Positions 37,248 to 42,715 of a stretch of DNA of 51,655 nucleotides are shown in pieces. The notes beneath the pieces were generated by a model. The model worked only from the letters and a program-made list of their open reading frames with translations. It did not search any database and had not been told where the DNA came from. This DNA comes from an uncultured Acidobacteriota bacterium (lineage in GTDB: Bacteria; Acidobacteriota; Thermoanaerobaculia; Multivoradales; SZUA-115). Within the stretch, counting starts at the first letter, position 1. The number at the start of each line of letters is the position of its first letter. The position numbers and the translations under genes are program-made. The DNA is taken from assembly GCA_937867335.1 (NCBI GenBank), contig CALMKX010000340.1, forward strand, positions 1-51,655. The letters run 5' to 3'.

Positions 37248-39008
37248 CTAGCTCTCTACCAGAGAGCCCGCCTGCGCGAGGCGGCCTCGCAGATAGTCTT
37301 CGATCTCGCCCGCGGTGCCGAGCTCCAGGCAGTGCTCGGCCCAGAGCGCGAGATCCCTTGCCGAGAGTTCGCGCAACGTCGTCTTGATGGCAGGGAGAGT
37401 GCGTGGTCCCATCGACAGACGACGCACACCCAGCCCCACCAGCAGGGCGGCATAGAGAGGGTCTCCCGCCATCTCGCCGCAGACCGAGACCGGGATGCCG
37501 GCCGCGCTGGCGCCTTGCACCACGAAGCGCAGCATCCGCAACAGGGCCGGATGGAGCGGCTGGTAGAGGTTCGCCACATGCTCGTTGTTGCGATCCACGG
37601 CCAGGGAGTACTGAATCAGGTCGTTGGTACCGATAGCGAAGAAGTCCACTTCGCGGGCCAGCCGGTCCGCGATCACGGCCGCCGATGGCACCTCGATCAT
37701 TGTGCCGATCTTCAAGTTTTCCTTGAAGGTTTTCCCTTCTCGGGCCAACTCGGCTGCGACATCGGCCGCCAGGGCCTTGAACTGACGGACCTCGTCCAGG
37801 GACGAGACCAGGGGCACCATCAGCCACAGATCCCCGTAGCTCGCCGCCTGGAACAGAGCCCGAAGCTGGGTGCGGAACACCTGGGGCCGCGAGAGGGTGA
37901 GCCGTACTCCCCGCAGGCCGAGAACAGGGTTCTCCTCACGGGTGTTGAGCAGCTCGCGTACCAGCTTCTTGCCACCCAGGTCGTAGGTACGGATCACCGC
38001 CGGATGCGGCGCCGCAGCCTCGACCAGCTTGCGGTAGACGGCGATGTGCTCGGCTTCGCTCGGCAGGTTGGGGCTCTTCTCGATGTACAGGAACTCGCTT
38101 CGATACAGGCCGATGCCGGCAGCGCCGTAGCGCGCCGCGGCCTCCACCTCCTCGGGCACATCGATGTTGGCCATCAGGTAGAGCGGCTCGCCGTCCGAGG
38201 TGCGGGCTTCGAGGCTGCGCGTGGCCACCAGCGCCCGCTCTTGCTCGGCTTGCCCGGAGAGCCGGCTCTGGTACTCGGCCAAGACCTCCTCGGTGGGATG
38301 CAGAATGATCGTCCCAGCATCGCCATCCAAGATGACTGGATCTTCGTCGTACAAATATTTTCGAAGATCAGATATTCCAACCACCAAGGGCAGATTGAAG
38401 GAGCGGGCGAGGATCGCCGTGTGCGAGGTGCGCCCTCCGGACTCCACGGCGAAGCCGAGCACCTGCTCGCGGCCCAGCCTCAGCGTGTAGGAAGGCGGCA
38501 GCTCGTCGGCGACCACCACGCGACCGGCTTCGGCGGCCGGGTGGTCGTGCTGGTCCAGCCCCTGGAGGCCCCGCAGGATCTGGTGCGCCACGTCCTGGAG
38601 GTCCTCCATGCGCTGGCGCAGATAGTCGTCCTCGATGCGCGCGAATTGCCCCTCGAGTTCCTCGGTGGTGCTAAACACGGCCCACTCGGCATTGACCTGG
38701 TCCTCGCGAATCCGCCGCTCCATGCGCTCGAGGAAGACCGGGTCGTCGAGGAAGAGGGCATGGGCATCGAAAATCGCCCCCAGCTCCTCGCCCAGCTCCC
38801 GGTGCACCTTGTCGCGAACCCGGCGGATCTCCTGCTGCGCAACCCGGGCAGCGGCCCGGAACCGATCCACCTCGGCCGGAACATCCCCGGGGTCGAGGCT
38901 CAAGCGGTAGACCTCTTCGGTCCGCGTCTCGATCACCAACGCCTTGCCGATGGCAATGCCCGGGGAGACCCCCAGCCCATGCAAGCGCTGCATCGGCTGC
39001 CGCTCCAT
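37248..39008 (-). CDS. ptsI: PTS enzyme I (phosphoenolpyruvate-protein phosphotransferase)
   Basis: Transfers phosphate from PEP to HPr; 586 residues. The phosphorylated His196 is in GGRTSHTAILAR. The PEP-binding barrel includes GIGLYRSEFLYI, GLRGVRLTLSRP, MIEVPSAA, GTNDLIQYSLAVDRNNE and the catalytic cysteine in VSVCGEMAGDP. No GAF domain precedes it, so it is EI rather than the EI-Ntr (PtsP) form. It lies two bases after the HPr gene. Confidence 0.96.
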   Translation of the reverse strand: MERQPMQRLHGLGVSPGIAIGKALVIETRTEEVYRLSLDPGDVPAEVDRFRAAARVAQQEIRRVRDKVHRELGEELGAIFDAHALFLDDPVFLERMERRIREDQVNAEWAVFSTTEELEGQFARIEDDYLRQRMEDLQDVAHQILRGLQGLDQHDHPAAEAGRVVVADELPPSYTLRLGREQVLGFAVESGGRTSHTAILARSFNLPLVVGISDLRKYLYDEDPVILDGDAGTIILHPTEEVLAEYQSRLSGQAEQERALVATRSLEARTSDGEPLYLMANIDVPEEVEAAARYGAAGIGLYRSEFLYIEKSPNLPSEAEHIAVYRKLVEAAAPHPAVIRTYDLGGKKLVRELLNTREENPVLGLRGVRLTLSRPQVFRTQLRALFQAASYGDLWLMVPLVSSLDEVRQFKALAADVAAELAREGKTFKENLKIGTMIEVPSAAVIADRLAREVDFFAIGTNDLIQYSLAVDRNNEHVANLYQPLHPALLRMLRFVVQGASAAGIPVSVCGEMAGDPLYAALLVGLGVRRLSMGPRTLPAIKTTLRELSARDLALWAEHCLELGTAGEIEDYLRGRLAQAGSLVES

Positions 39009-39010
39009 GC

Positions 39011-39277
39011 TCAGTCCTCCTCGAACTTGTCGCGGATCAGGCCCGTGAGCGCGGCCGCAGCCGCCTCCTCGTCCTCGCCGTCGCAGCGCAATTTCAGCGC
39101 AGTTCCCTGGGGGGCCGCCAGGAGCAGCACGCCCAGGATGCTCTTGGCGTCGACCTCCTCGCCCTCGCGAACCAGGGCGATGCGCGACTTGAACCGCGCC
39201 GCCTGGTGAACCAGCTTGGCAGCGGCTCGGGCATGCAGCCCCAGTCGGTTGCTGATCTCCACATCCTCCTCGACCAT
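39011..39277 (-). CDS. ptsH: Phosphocarrier protein HPr
   Basis: Phosphate carrier of 88 residues. His15 (NRLGLHARAAAKLV) takes phosphate from enzyme I, and Ser46 (DAKSILGVLLLAA) is the site used by HPr kinase. Both are intact, so HPr can receive both signals, which fits the hprK gene in the same operon. The ATG at 39275-39277 gives the standard length. Confidence 0.96.
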   Translation of the reverse strand: MVEEDVEISNRLGLHARAAAKLVHQAARFKSRIALVREGEEVDAKSILGVLLLAAPQGTALKLRCDGEDEEAAAAALTGLIRDKFEED

Positions 39278-39279
39278 CC

Positions 39280-39717
39280 TCAGCCCACCTCGACCGGTTC
39301 TGCGCAGGGTGCCGGAGCAGAGCCGGCGCCGCGGGGCTGCGCGTGCTGAATGGAGCCCTGGCCTTTCGCCGTCAGCCACTCGGCGGCTTCGCTCACGGAG
39401 AGGCTCTCGCCACCCGGACAACCCAGGCGAACCACCATGGGCAAGTTGGCGCCGGTGACCACCTCCACCCGTCCGGGCTCGGCGAGCGCCAGGGCCGCCT
39501 GGCAGGGAGTGGAGCCGAACAGATCGACCAGCAACAAGACCTCGGACGGCCCGGCTTCCGCCATCGCCGAAGCGATCCGCTCCCGAGCTGTGGCCAAGTC
39601 GTCGTCCCAACCGAGCGAGACCGCCTGGCACTGCGACAGAGTGCCGGCGATCCTCTTGCCGGCCGCCACGAGCTCCGAAGCCAGAGCGCCCTGAGTCACT
39701 ACCAGCGTCCTGAACAT
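39280..39717 (-). CDS. PTS EIIA-Man-like protein lacking the active-site histidine
   Basis: Protein of 145 residues with the EIIA-Man fold: MFRTLVVTQGALASELVAAG, then VLLLVDLFGSTPCQAALALA (Asp65) and VEVVTGANLPMVVRL. In this family the residue in T-H-G near position 10 is the phosphorylated histidine; here it is Gln9 (codon CAG, clearly read). The fold-defining aspartate and NLPM motif remain, so the domain is probably folded but cannot be phosphorylated in the usual way. It sits between rapZ and HPr. It may act as an unphosphorylatable binding partner in regulation. Confidence 0.88.
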   Translation of the reverse strand: MFRTLVVTQGALASELVAAGKRIAGTLSQCQAVSLGWDDDLATARERIASAMAEAGPSEVLLLVDLFGSTPCQAALALAEPGRVEVVTGANLPMVVRLGCPGGESLSVSEAAEWLTAKGQGSIQHAQPRGAGSAPAPCAEPVEVG

Positions 39718-39845: not shown

Positions 39846-40724
39846 TTACCGCCCGAGGTCTCTGTGGACCAGGCGGATGGCCCAGCCGGCTTCGATCAGG
39901 CTTCGGCTCAGCAGCTCGGCCACGGCCACCGAACGGTGGCGCCCGCCGGTGCAGCCGATGGCGATCGAGACGTAGCTGCGGTTCTCGCGGCGGTAGAGAG
40001 GGAGGAGGTAGAGCAGGAGGTCCCCGAGGCGGCCGATCAGCTCGGCGAACTCCGGCTGACCTCCCAGGTAGTCGAGGATGGCGGCTTCCTGACCAGTCTT
40101 CTCGCGGAGGTCTGGCACGAAGTAGGGGTTGGGCAGGAAGCGCACGTCGAACAGCAAGTCCGTACCGTAGGGAATCCCGTGTTTGAAGCCGAAGGAGACC
40201 AGCGAGACGGTGAGCGGCGGCTCTTCTCCTCGCTCACCGGCGAACTCCCGATAGACCTGCCGGCGAGTCTCGTGGATGGACCACTCGGTGGTGTCGAACA
40301 CCAGGTCCGCCTGGCCGCGGAGCTCGGCGAGCAGGCGCCGCTCCTCTCGGATGCTCTCGATCAAGGCGCCGCCGCATGCGAGCGGGTGCGGGCGACGGGT
40401 CTCCGAGAAGCGCCGGACCAAGGCCTCGTCGGAGGCCTCGAGGAAAAGCAGGGTGAGGTCCACCGCCGAGCGATCGATGCCGCTCACCAGGCCGGGAAAG
40501 CGCTCGGCGAACCCCGGGGCTCGAACGTCGGTGACCACGGCGATGCGATCCCGCCCTTCCACCAGCCCCGAAGGATCGGCGAGCAAGGGCTCGAGCAAGG
40601 GCAACGGCAGGTTGTCCACCACGTAGTAGCCGAGATCCTCGAAGCTGTTGGCGGCGGAGCTCTTGCCAGAGCCCGAGAGCCCGGTGATCAGCACCAGGCG
40701 GCAGCGCCCGCCTCCCCCGCTCAT
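39846..40724 (-). CDS. rapZ: RNase adapter/nucleotide-binding protein RapZ
   Basis: P-loop protein of 292 residues, known in enterobacteria as the adapter controlling glmS through sRNA decay. Walker A is GLSGSGKS (15-22). The C-terminal domain has FGFKHGIPYGTDLLFDVRFLPNP and IAIGCTGGRHRSVAVAELL. Start ATG and hprK stop overlap by four bases. The link with hprK and HPr is widespread; the target in this organism is unknown. Confidence 0.95.
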   Translation of the reverse strand: MSGGGGRCRLVLITGLSGSGKSSAANSFEDLGYYVVDNLPLPLLEPLLADPSGLVEGRDRIAVVTDVRAPGFAERFPGLVSGIDRSAVDLTLLFLEASDEALVRRFSETRRPHPLACGGALIESIREERRLLAELRGQADLVFDTTEWSIHETRRQVYREFAGERGEEPPLTVSLVSFGFKHGIPYGTDLLFDVRFLPNPYFVPDLREKTGQEAAILDYLGGQPEFAELIGRLGDLLLYLLPLYRRENRSYVSIAIGCTGGRHRSVAVAELLSRSLIEAGWAIRLVHRDLGR

Positions 40725-41683
40725 GATCCCTGGTTTCCGCCGCGCTGCCGGCGATTGCGCTCGAGCTCGGCTTCCAGCTTGTGCAGGAACTCCTGGGCCG
40801 AGTGGTGCCCCTGGAGCTTGAGTACATGGTTGCGGGCGGCGATCTCCACCAGCATGGCGACGTTGCGCCCCACGGTGACCGGCATCTTGATGTAGGGCAC
40901 CTGCGTCTCGAGGATGGGAAAAACACTCTCGTCCAGCCCCAGGCGGTCGTACTGGCGATCCACCTCCCAGGGCTCGAGTTCGATGACCAGGTCGATGCCC
41001 CGACGGTCCCGCACCGCGGCCAGGCCGAAGAGGTCCTGGACGTTGATGATCCCCAGGCCGCGCACCTCCATGTGGTGGCGCAGCGCCCCTTCGGCGTAGC
41101 CGACCAGATCCCCCGAAGGGTAGCGCCGCACGGTGACGCGGTCGTCGGCCACCAGGCTATGGCCGCGGACGATCAAGTCGAGAGCGCTCTCGCTCTTGCC
41201 TACCCCGCTCGGCCCGATCAACAGCACACCCAGGCCATAGATATCGAGCAGCGTGCCATGCACCCAGGTGCTCGGCACCAGGTGATCCTCGAGAAAGTAG
41301 CTCACCCTCTTGATCACTACCGACGAGAGCGCGGTCGAGGAGAGTACCGGCACCTGATGGCGCTCGCAGGCTTCGAGGAAGCCGGGCAGAGCGGCGATAC
41401 CCTTGGTGATGATGAAGACCGGCACCGGCATTTCGGCGATGCGGGCGAAACGCTCCAGGCAGAGCTCCGGCGGCAAGGTGCGCAGGTACGTGGTCTCGCT
41501 CTCACCGATGATCTGCACGCGGCCGGCCTTGATGTAGGCGTAATAGCCGGCGAACGCGAGCCCGGGCTTCTGGACCCGTGGATTGGAGATCGCACGGTCG
41601 AGATTCCGCTCGCCGGCGAGCACCCGCAGGTGGAGGTCCTCGAGCTCACCCTCGAGGAGGTTCTTGACCGTGACCGACGGCAC
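40721..41683 (-). CDS. hprK: HPr kinase/phosphorylase
   Basis: Phosphorylates and dephosphorylates Ser46 of HPr; 320 residues. The N-terminal domain is DRTGG-like and variable. The catalytic domain has His142 (VHGTLLDIYG), Walker A GPSGVGKS (157-164) and the HprK signature EVRGLGIINVQDLFG (206-220). The start is GTG 41683, two bases after the ptsN stop; no ATG lies in frame nearby, and the length fits the family. Confidence 0.96.
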   Translation of the reverse strand: MPSVTVKNLLEGELEDLHLRVLAGERNLDRAISNPRVQKPGLAFAGYYAYIKAGRVQIIGESETTYLRTLPPELCLERFARIAEMPVPVFIITKGIAALPGFLEACERHQVPVLSSTALSSVVIKRVSYFLEDHLVPSTWVHGTLLDIYGLGVLLIGPSGVGKSESALDLIVRGHSLVADDRVTVRRYPSGDLVGYAEGALRHHMEVRGLGIINVQDLFGLAAVRDRRGIDLVIELEPWEVDRQYDRLGLDESVFPILETQVPYIKMPVTVGRNVAMLVEIAARNHVLKLQGHHSAQEFLHKLEAELERNRRQRGGNQGS

Positions 41684-41685
41684 CC

Positions 41686-42147
41686 TCAAGTGGCATCTCC
41701 ATCGCCCAGCAGAGCGAGCACCTCTCCCGGCGATCTCGCCGCCACCAGTTGCTCCACCCGGCCCCGCTCCTTGAGCCAGCGAGAGATCGCGGCCAAGACC
41801 TGGAGGTGCATGGCCGGCTGGGCTTCCGGGGAGATCACCAGGAAGAACACCCGGACGGTGTCGGCATCGGCCGATCGGCTGGCACCTGGAGCTTCGACGG
41901 TGCCCACGGCGACCAGAGGCGCCTCGAGGTTCGGCACCTTGCAATGCGGCAAAGCGATGCCGTCGCCCAGACCCGTGGGGCTGCTCGCCTCGCGAGCCAG
42001 CAATCGCTCGGCGAGGTCCGCCGCGGTAGCCACCCGTCCGCTCGCCGCGATCCGCGCCGCAGCCAGCCTCAACACCTCCTCCCAGCTGACGGCCGGCAGC
42101 TCCACGAAGATCAGCTCGGGCCGGAGCAGCGAGGCGAGGCGCATCAT
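41686..42147 (-). CDS. ptsN: PTS EIIA-Ntr (PtsN)
   Basis: Regulatory EIIA of the fructose/nitrogen type, 153 residues. His68 in GIALPHCKVPNL is the phosphorylation site and is intact, unlike in the EIIA-Man-like protein downstream. Other family segments are LLAREASSPTGLGDGIALPH and VRVFFLVISPEAQPAMHLQVLAAISRWL. The neighbourhood with rpoN and hpf is the classical one. Confidence 0.95.
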   Translation of the reverse strand: MMRLASLLRPELIFVELPAVSWEEVLRLAAARIAASGRVATAADLAERLLAREASSPTGLGDGIALPHCKVPNLEAPLVAVGTVEAPGASRSADADTVRVFFLVISPEAQPAMHLQVLAAISRWLKERGRVEQLVAARSPGEVLALLGDGDAT

Positions 42148-42157
42148 CGAGCGGCCG

Positions 42158-42715
42158 CTACGCCTCGAGCTCCGGGCTGATCAGGCCCAGGTTCTGGTCC
42201 CGGCGGCGATAGAGCACATGGATGCGCTCCGTGCCGGCTTCGCGGAACACGATGAAGTCGTTTTTCGAAGAAGTGAGGGCGAGCGCCGCGTCGTCGATCG
42301 ACATCGGCTTGATCTCGAGGCGGCTCGACTTGATCACCCGGGGAGGCTCGCCGCTGCCCAGGCTCTCGGCCTCGAGGACGTCCATCGGCCAGTGGTTCTG
42401 GCCGTCAGCGCTCCGGCTCGCGCGCCGCCGCTTGTCGACCGCCTTGCTCTTCGAGCGCCGGGCCTGCTTCTCCACTTTGTCGATTGCGAGGTTCAGGGCG
42501 TCGAGCACCAGGTCGTGCTCTTCGTCCGCCTGGAGCACGCCGTGCTTGTGGGCGATGTGGAGCTCCACCGAGTGGCGGTGCTTTTCGGAGGCCACCGTGA
42601 TCCGCGCCTCGACCGGCTCGTCCAGGAATTTGAAGATCTTCTTGAGCTTGGTCTCGGCGAAGGTGCGCACTTTGTCGTCGATGGTGTAGTGCCGGCCCAC
42701 ATAGTCAATGTTCAT
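42158..42715 (-). CDS. hpf: Ribosome hibernation promoting factor, long form
   Basis: Binds 30S subunits in resting cells and joins ribosomes into 100S dimers; 185 residues. The N-terminal domain (1-105) has the HPF/YfiA fold (RHYTIDDKVRTFAETKLKKIFKFL, HRHSVELHIAHKHG). The C-terminal domain (about 130-185) holds KSSRLEIKPMSIDDAALALTSSKNDFIVFREAGTERIHVLYRR, the self-dimerising part of the long form. It lies between rpoN and ptsN as in many genomes. Confidence 0.95.
   Translation of the reverse strand: MNIDYVGRHYTIDDKVRTFAETKLKKIFKFLDEPVEARITVASEKHRHSVELHIAHKHGVLQADEEHDLVLDALNLAIDKVEKQARRSKSKAVDKRRRASRSADGQNHWPMDVLEAESLGSGEPPRVIKSSRLEIKPMSIDDAALALTSSKNDFIVFREAGTERIHVLYRRRDQNLGLISPELEA

Follow-up and report, generated by a model that had tools for sequence, protein, structure and literature searches.

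Repeated loss of the phosphorylation-site histidine from an EIIA-Man-type PTS protein in one lineage of Thermoanaerobaculia

PTS proteins are a textbook case of histidine-phosphorylation signalling: PEP phosphorylates EI, the phosphate passes to HPr, and HPr in turn phosphorylates EIIA proteins. Known EIIA-Man proteins share seven strictly conserved residues, including His10, Asp67, Gly71 and Asn75 in E. coli numbering. Asp67 is hydrogen-bonded to His10 in published structures, and the His-Asp pair is said to occur throughout the EIIA-Man homologues (PMC7587183). ManX/PtsM of the alpha-proteobacterial PTS-Ntr, known from Brucella and Rhizobium, belongs to the same Pfam family as the protein described here and, like it, is encoded in one copy beside hprK and the HPr gene, with no EIIB or EIIC. 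Unphosphorylated Brucella EIIA-Man binds the 2-oxoglutarate dehydrogenase subunit SucA (PMC2937029; reviewed in PMC13104625), and rhizobial ManX has been placed in control of the TCA cycle (PMC13104625). An ancestral rpoN-ptsN-ptsK cluster with IIA-Man genes has been described for Proteobacteria, for example Xanthomonadales (Comas et al., PMC2405797). Its neighbourhood of rpoN, ptsN, ptsK (hprK), IIA-Man, ptsH and ptsI is the one reported below; the passages concerned make no mention of active-histidine loss in IIA-Man. A PTS protein whose phospho-accepting histidine has become glutamine is known in Crh of Bacillus and relatives, an HPr paralogue (His15 to Gln) that acts in regulation only (PMC9631020).

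Here we analyse a window, meaning the whole 51,655-nucleotide stretch of DNA under study, from a 5.56 Mb MAG whose order belongs to the class Thermoanaerobaculia, phylum Acidobacteriota. Its minus strand carries an operon in the order rpoN, hpf, ptsN, hprK, rapZ, EIIA-Man, HPr and EI (Table 1). The EIIA-Man reading frame opens with ATG at 39717, and the N terminus of its product reads MFRTLVVTQGALA.... The protein matches Pfam PF03610 with 61.2 bits (E 1.3e-16; cut-off 21.4) and is the sole match to that family genome-wide, leaving no second EIIA-Man in the window genome. An AlphaFold2 model computed from an alignment of 87 relatives reached a pLDDT of 92.7. Its top Foldseek matches (3ipr, 3lfh and 3bed) are all of the EIIA-Man type, and VIA superposition gave Z 19.5 with an rmsd of 1.9 over 129 residues against E. 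faecalis EIIA (3bed) and Z 18.8 against E. coli 1pdo. By family match and fold, the gene is a genuine EIIA-Man.

Table 1. Coordinates of the PTS operon and of key EIIA-Man residues within the window
Feature	Position	Strand	Evidence
EIIA-Man-like protein of 145 aa with Gln in place of His9	39280..39717	-	translation, PF03610, AlphaFold2, VIA
Gln9, codon CAG; aligned with phospho-accepting His10 of E. coli EIIA-Man	39691..39693	-	translation, alignment
Asp65, kept; opposite E. coli Asp67, which hydrogen-bonds His10 (PMC7587183)	39523..39525	-	translation, alignment
Cys100; opposite E. coli Met103, a residue of the pocket next to His10 (PMC7587183)	39418..39420	-	alignment, conservation
HPr (ptsH), His15 and Ser46 kept	39011..39277	-	PF00381, 96 bits
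Enzyme I, catalytic His196 and Cys510 kept	37248..39008	-	three Pfam domains; residues
RapZ, P-loop kept	39846..40724	-	PF03668, PF22740
HprK (HPr kinase/phosphorylase), P-loop kept; start codon provisional	40721..41659	-	PF07475, PF02603
PtsN (EIIA-Ntr), His68 kept; the relay's remaining phosphoacceptor	41686..42147	-	PF00359, 106 bits
Hpf-like ribosome hibernation factor; rpoN upstream	42158..42715	-	open reading frames, operon comparison; named from sequence

Alignment of the window protein to E. coli ManX (L322) placed His10, Asp67, Gly71 and Asn75 opposite Gln9, Asp65, Ser69 and Gln73. The phospho-accepting histidine is thus absent and its aspartate partner present, while the two positions that serve the pocket and the HPr contact read Ser and Gln in place of Gly71 and Asn75. 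The phosphotransfer site has therefore changed at more than one position. A sequence-only reading of this DNA had proposed the His-to-Gln change (CAG), which translation, Pfam and alignment confirm; its companion statement, that the remaining conserved residues are kept, stands for Asp65 and the GxNLPM core and fails at the Gly71 and Asn75 equivalents. Sugar-transporting EIIA-Man proteins (E. coli ManX, 1pdo; E. faecalis, 3bed) share the fold over 126–129 residues, together with the equivalents of Asp67, Gly11, Gly92 and Asn94. They differ from the window protein at the equivalents of His10, Gly71 and Asn75, here Gln, Ser and Gln, and the window genome is without EIIB-Man and PF02378 EIIC. Homology to EIIA-Man holds, but to judge from these residues the protein does not pass as a working phosphocarrier.

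The sequence-only reading had also placed the gene in a PTS operon with EI, HPr, HprK, RapZ and PtsN, each of which Pfam supports, and had seen no EIIB or EIIC beside it. Searches with PF02378 (EIIC) and PF03830 (Man-type EIIB) bore this out genome-wide, finding neither family in the window genome or in 19 related ones (PF03609, PF03613, PF00367 and PF02302 lay outside the search). For the two families searched, this rejects a hidden sugar transporter across the 20 genomes. PtsN was found in all 20; each genome examined holds one EIIA-Man, with no second, His-bearing copy detected.

With hprK, EIIA-Man and HPr genes together and neither PF02378 nor PF03830 matched, the neighbourhood is of the ManX type. 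ManX/PtsM differs in possessing His9, and NPr phosphorylates the Brucella form in vitro, whereas the window protein has Gln at that position and lacks the phosphorylatable residue of the type. Crh offers an analogy of mechanism from a different protein family: there too the phospho-accepting histidine of a PTS protein has become Gln, with the fold and the other PTS parts retained. Unlike the window protein, Crh has the HPr fold, keeps Ser46 for HprK and exists as a paralogue alongside a functional HPr; here the fold is that of EIIA-Man and the sole copy has changed, which places the protein outside Crh. We favour, at a probability of about 0.6, a regulatory EIIA-Man of the ManX type, belonging to a PTS that lacks PF02378 EIIC and Man-type EIIB; this EIIA-Man would have left the phosphorelay and been kept for phosphorylation-independent binding.

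We searched the order in full (72 genomes) and retrieved the operon from 55 relatives. Among 55 readable order sequences, the window included, position 9 is His in 44, Gln in 8 and Arg in 3. Glutamine occurs in the window (family f1), G010, three g11 genomes, two g16 genomes and G038; arginine occurs in three g4 genomes. Both f1 relatives of the window keep His9, and G010 with Gln has a genus-mate, G041, with His. Elsewhere in the class, 39 of 40 loci have His9 and one has Arg (G091, L208), in the sister lineage of the order; the rest of the phylum is uniformly His (59/59). A second collection of 80 named loci, including relatives from Geobacter and Anaeromyxobacter, contained 79 His and a single Gln, which is G038 again. 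The survey of homologues across the phylum that the sequence-only reading had suggested thus yields 8 Gln and 4 Arg genomes, all in the order and its sister lineage, with His9 in every one of the other 98 Acidobacteriota sequences examined.

These counts bear on whether the change is real. The window is a single draft MAG and its nearest relatives carry His, an outcome that the same reading had said would point to a sequencing error or a single-strain mutation. That expectation came true for the two same-family genomes, but Gln or Arg appears in another 11 genomes from different lineages, in some cases throughout a genus, and the window protein has further changes at the same site. A misread or misassembled codon is accordingly very improbable. 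A single-strain mutation is ruled out by the recurrence of Gln and Arg and by the variety of codons, two for Gln (CAG, CAA) and four for Arg (CGT, CGC, CGG, AGG). No viral copy of EIIA was found, and there was no close relative among plasmid matches.

The histidine was lost about 6–7 times, 4–5 times to Gln and twice to Arg, with every loss confined to this order of Thermoanaerobaculia and its sister lineage. A tree of the operon proteins (EI, HprK, RapZ, HPr and PtsN) implies at least 7 changes, 5 to Gln and 2 to Arg; an EIIA tree computed without site 9 implies 6. On the EIIA tree the Gln sequences are not one clade, and forcing them into one is rejected (AU p 0.010), which argues against horizontal spread of one Gln allele. 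On the operon tree, grouping g16 with g11 to the exclusion of the His-bearing G056 is likewise rejected (p 0.002). Replacement by Gln or Arg only, over 6–7 events, has a chance of about 0.001–0.006 under a simple neutral single-base model that ignores codon and GC bias.

The phosphate-delivering part of the system persisted alongside these losses. EI, HPr with His15 and Ser46, and the PtsN histidine are retained at every complete locus, and HprK is retained in the Gln and Arg genomes, with one copy split: hprK of G019 (L057, an Arg9 genome) is divided between two frames, through either a frameshift or misassembly. Separate oddities occur in other loci. Genus g5 of family f4 (L076–L088) keeps His9 and has Asp65 replaced by Glu (12) or Gln (1); no HprK was found in any of the six g5 genomes searched. 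The RapZ Walker A lysine is Met (GLSGSGMSS) in 42 loci from Blastocatellia and related Acidobacteriota (L110, L116, L136, L154, L240, L252, L265, L290 and others), Val in two loci and Arg in three Thermoanaerobaculia. In L132 and L289, HPr Ser46 is replaced by His or Gly, and HprK was not found at either locus.

Whether the altered EIIA is maintained or decaying can be approached from its variation. Within genera, EIIA pN/pS is 0.26–0.54 in Gln/Arg pairs against 0.10–0.58 in the remaining pairs, a crude and only indicative comparison at such distances, given that dS is near saturation in many pairs and the window itself has no within-genus pair. The values suggest purifying selection on most copies. 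Even the nearest relative of the window protein is identical to it at only about half of the positions. No Gln/Arg member departs from Gly10, Asp65, Gly68, Thr70, Pro71, Gly89, Asn91 or Leu92.

The order may instead no longer need EIIA-Man phosphorylation, with the Gln, Arg and deleted forms as stages in the loss of a gene whose frame persists through recency and translational coupling to HPr. The gene has indeed been removed cleanly in family f2 (G003, G011), where rapZ is followed directly by the HPr gene at gaps of 5 and 12 nt (L319:3724-4841, L320:2453-3595) and ptsN, hprK, rapZ, HPr and EI are all present; the relay in this order thus does not need EIIA-Man. A search of the order genomes also found no EIIA in G036, several conserved residues have changed in the window, and the HPr start lies 2 nt beyond the EIIA stop codon, so that EIIA conservation could be due in part to translational coupling. 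Set against degeneration, pN/pS resembles that of His-bearing relatives, only Gln and Arg have been accepted, with synonymous turnover, whole genera share one or the other, the predicted fold is confident, and Asp65, Gly10, Gly68, Gly89 and Asn91 never vary among Gln/Arg members. On balance we regard a degenerating gene as unlikely, although it ranks first among the rivals, ahead of a cysteine switch and then of error.

The idea of a cysteine switch arises from an order-wide shift that extends beyond position 9. Comparing positional entropy between the 98 outside sequences and the His-bearing order members outside family f4, we found that the loop at 64–73 around Asp65 rises from a mean of 0.21 to 0.88, which ranks it first for relaxation among 114 ten-residue stretches. 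The remaining EIIA positions are not relaxed (1.80 outside, 1.47 in the order). The relaxed loop includes the window's Ser69 and Gln73. Since the relaxation is present in His-bearing members, the phosphotransfer site loosened before, or independently of, loss of the histidine. New constraints appear in the order at Arg97, Cys100, Trp114 and Lys118. All 55 order sequences that could be read have Cys100, as does L208 from the sister lineage, where His is also lost; elsewhere in the phylum sample it occurs in 0 of 98 sequences. Its location in the pocket is taken from alignment to E. coli Met103 and the published structure. Every His9 loss falls inside the Cys100 clade, which accounts for roughly one quarter of the total tree length (p ~1e-4, calculated post hoc). 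We treat this association as a lead and not as proof, since the clade was picked with the data already in view and Cys100 has a single origin.

Cysteine serves as the phosphoacceptor in several EIIB families. The Cys100 thiol beside the active site might likewise have taken over from His9, as phosphoacceptor or as a redox- or metal-sensitive switch, after which His9 would have become dispensable and been lost repeatedly. The universality of Cys100 in the order and in L208, its alignment with the pocket residue next to His10 and the confinement of all losses to its clade speak for this, as does a second cysteine, Cys124, aligned with the HPr-contacting Lys127 and present in 29 of the 43 order members outside g5. 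A cysteine in the C-terminal tail (region 39283–39345 of the window) is common in the order alone, occurring in 29 of those 43 members against 2 of 99 sequences from elsewhere. Yet Cys100 and His9 coexist in most order members, Cys124 is missing from the window and the Arg9 lineages, a relaxed phosphotransfer loop is not obviously compatible with a new phosphoacceptor, the association comes down to one origin, and the cysteine may simply fill a hydrophobic pocket. We therefore find the takeover doubtful, and its fuller form, in which phosphocysteine or thiol sensing replaced His phosphorylation to make EIIA-Man a thiol-controlled regulator with His discarded repeatedly, improbable. Separately, g11 EIIA proteins carry a CCPGC motif at positions 99–103. 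Another conserved histidine as acceptor is rejected, none being common to the Gln/Arg proteins.

Under the favoured ManX-type reading, the EIIA is probably a regulator that is not phosphorylatable at position 9. HPr would be unable to phosphorylate it there and, with His9 absent, PEP-derived phosphate would pass only to PtsN, the remaining known acceptor, whose gene and residues are in place. The protein would go unphosphorylated at any other residue as well. Gln or Arg could hydrogen-bond Asp65 and hold the site in a shape resembling the unphosphorylated state, while the EIIA fold would still bind a partner, most probably an enzyme of metabolism or a fellow PTS protein, as unphosphorylated ManX/PtsM does with SucA. 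Its output would then be fixed with respect to EI and HPr and set by protein amount or another signal; the invariant Cys100 aligned with the active-site pocket may leave room for other chemistry. The sequence-only suggestion of an unphosphorylatable regulator agrees with a conserved protein whose phosphorylatable His is gone from an otherwise intact PTS without EIIC or Man-type EIIB. The picture of a site otherwise untouched holds less well, given Ser69, Gln73 and the order-wide relaxation of the Asp65 loop. The alternative named in that reading, use of another residue, might apply to Cys100.

We found no published report of an EIIA-Man without its histidine, although subscription literature lay mostly outside the search and this is weak evidence of novelty. 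Judged from the sequences, the variant is real and recurrent within a known protein family: a PTS EIIA has been disarmed where it would normally be phosphorylated, and the lineage that carries it has seen its whole phosphotransfer surface released from constraint. A single lineage has thus discarded this histidine several times over and retained the proteins that deliver the phosphate. The comparison raises a specific cysteine, Cys100, as a candidate. Together, G041 and G010, with His and Gln in one genus, and the removal of the gene in f2 make a natural experiment on the role of unphosphorylated EIIA.
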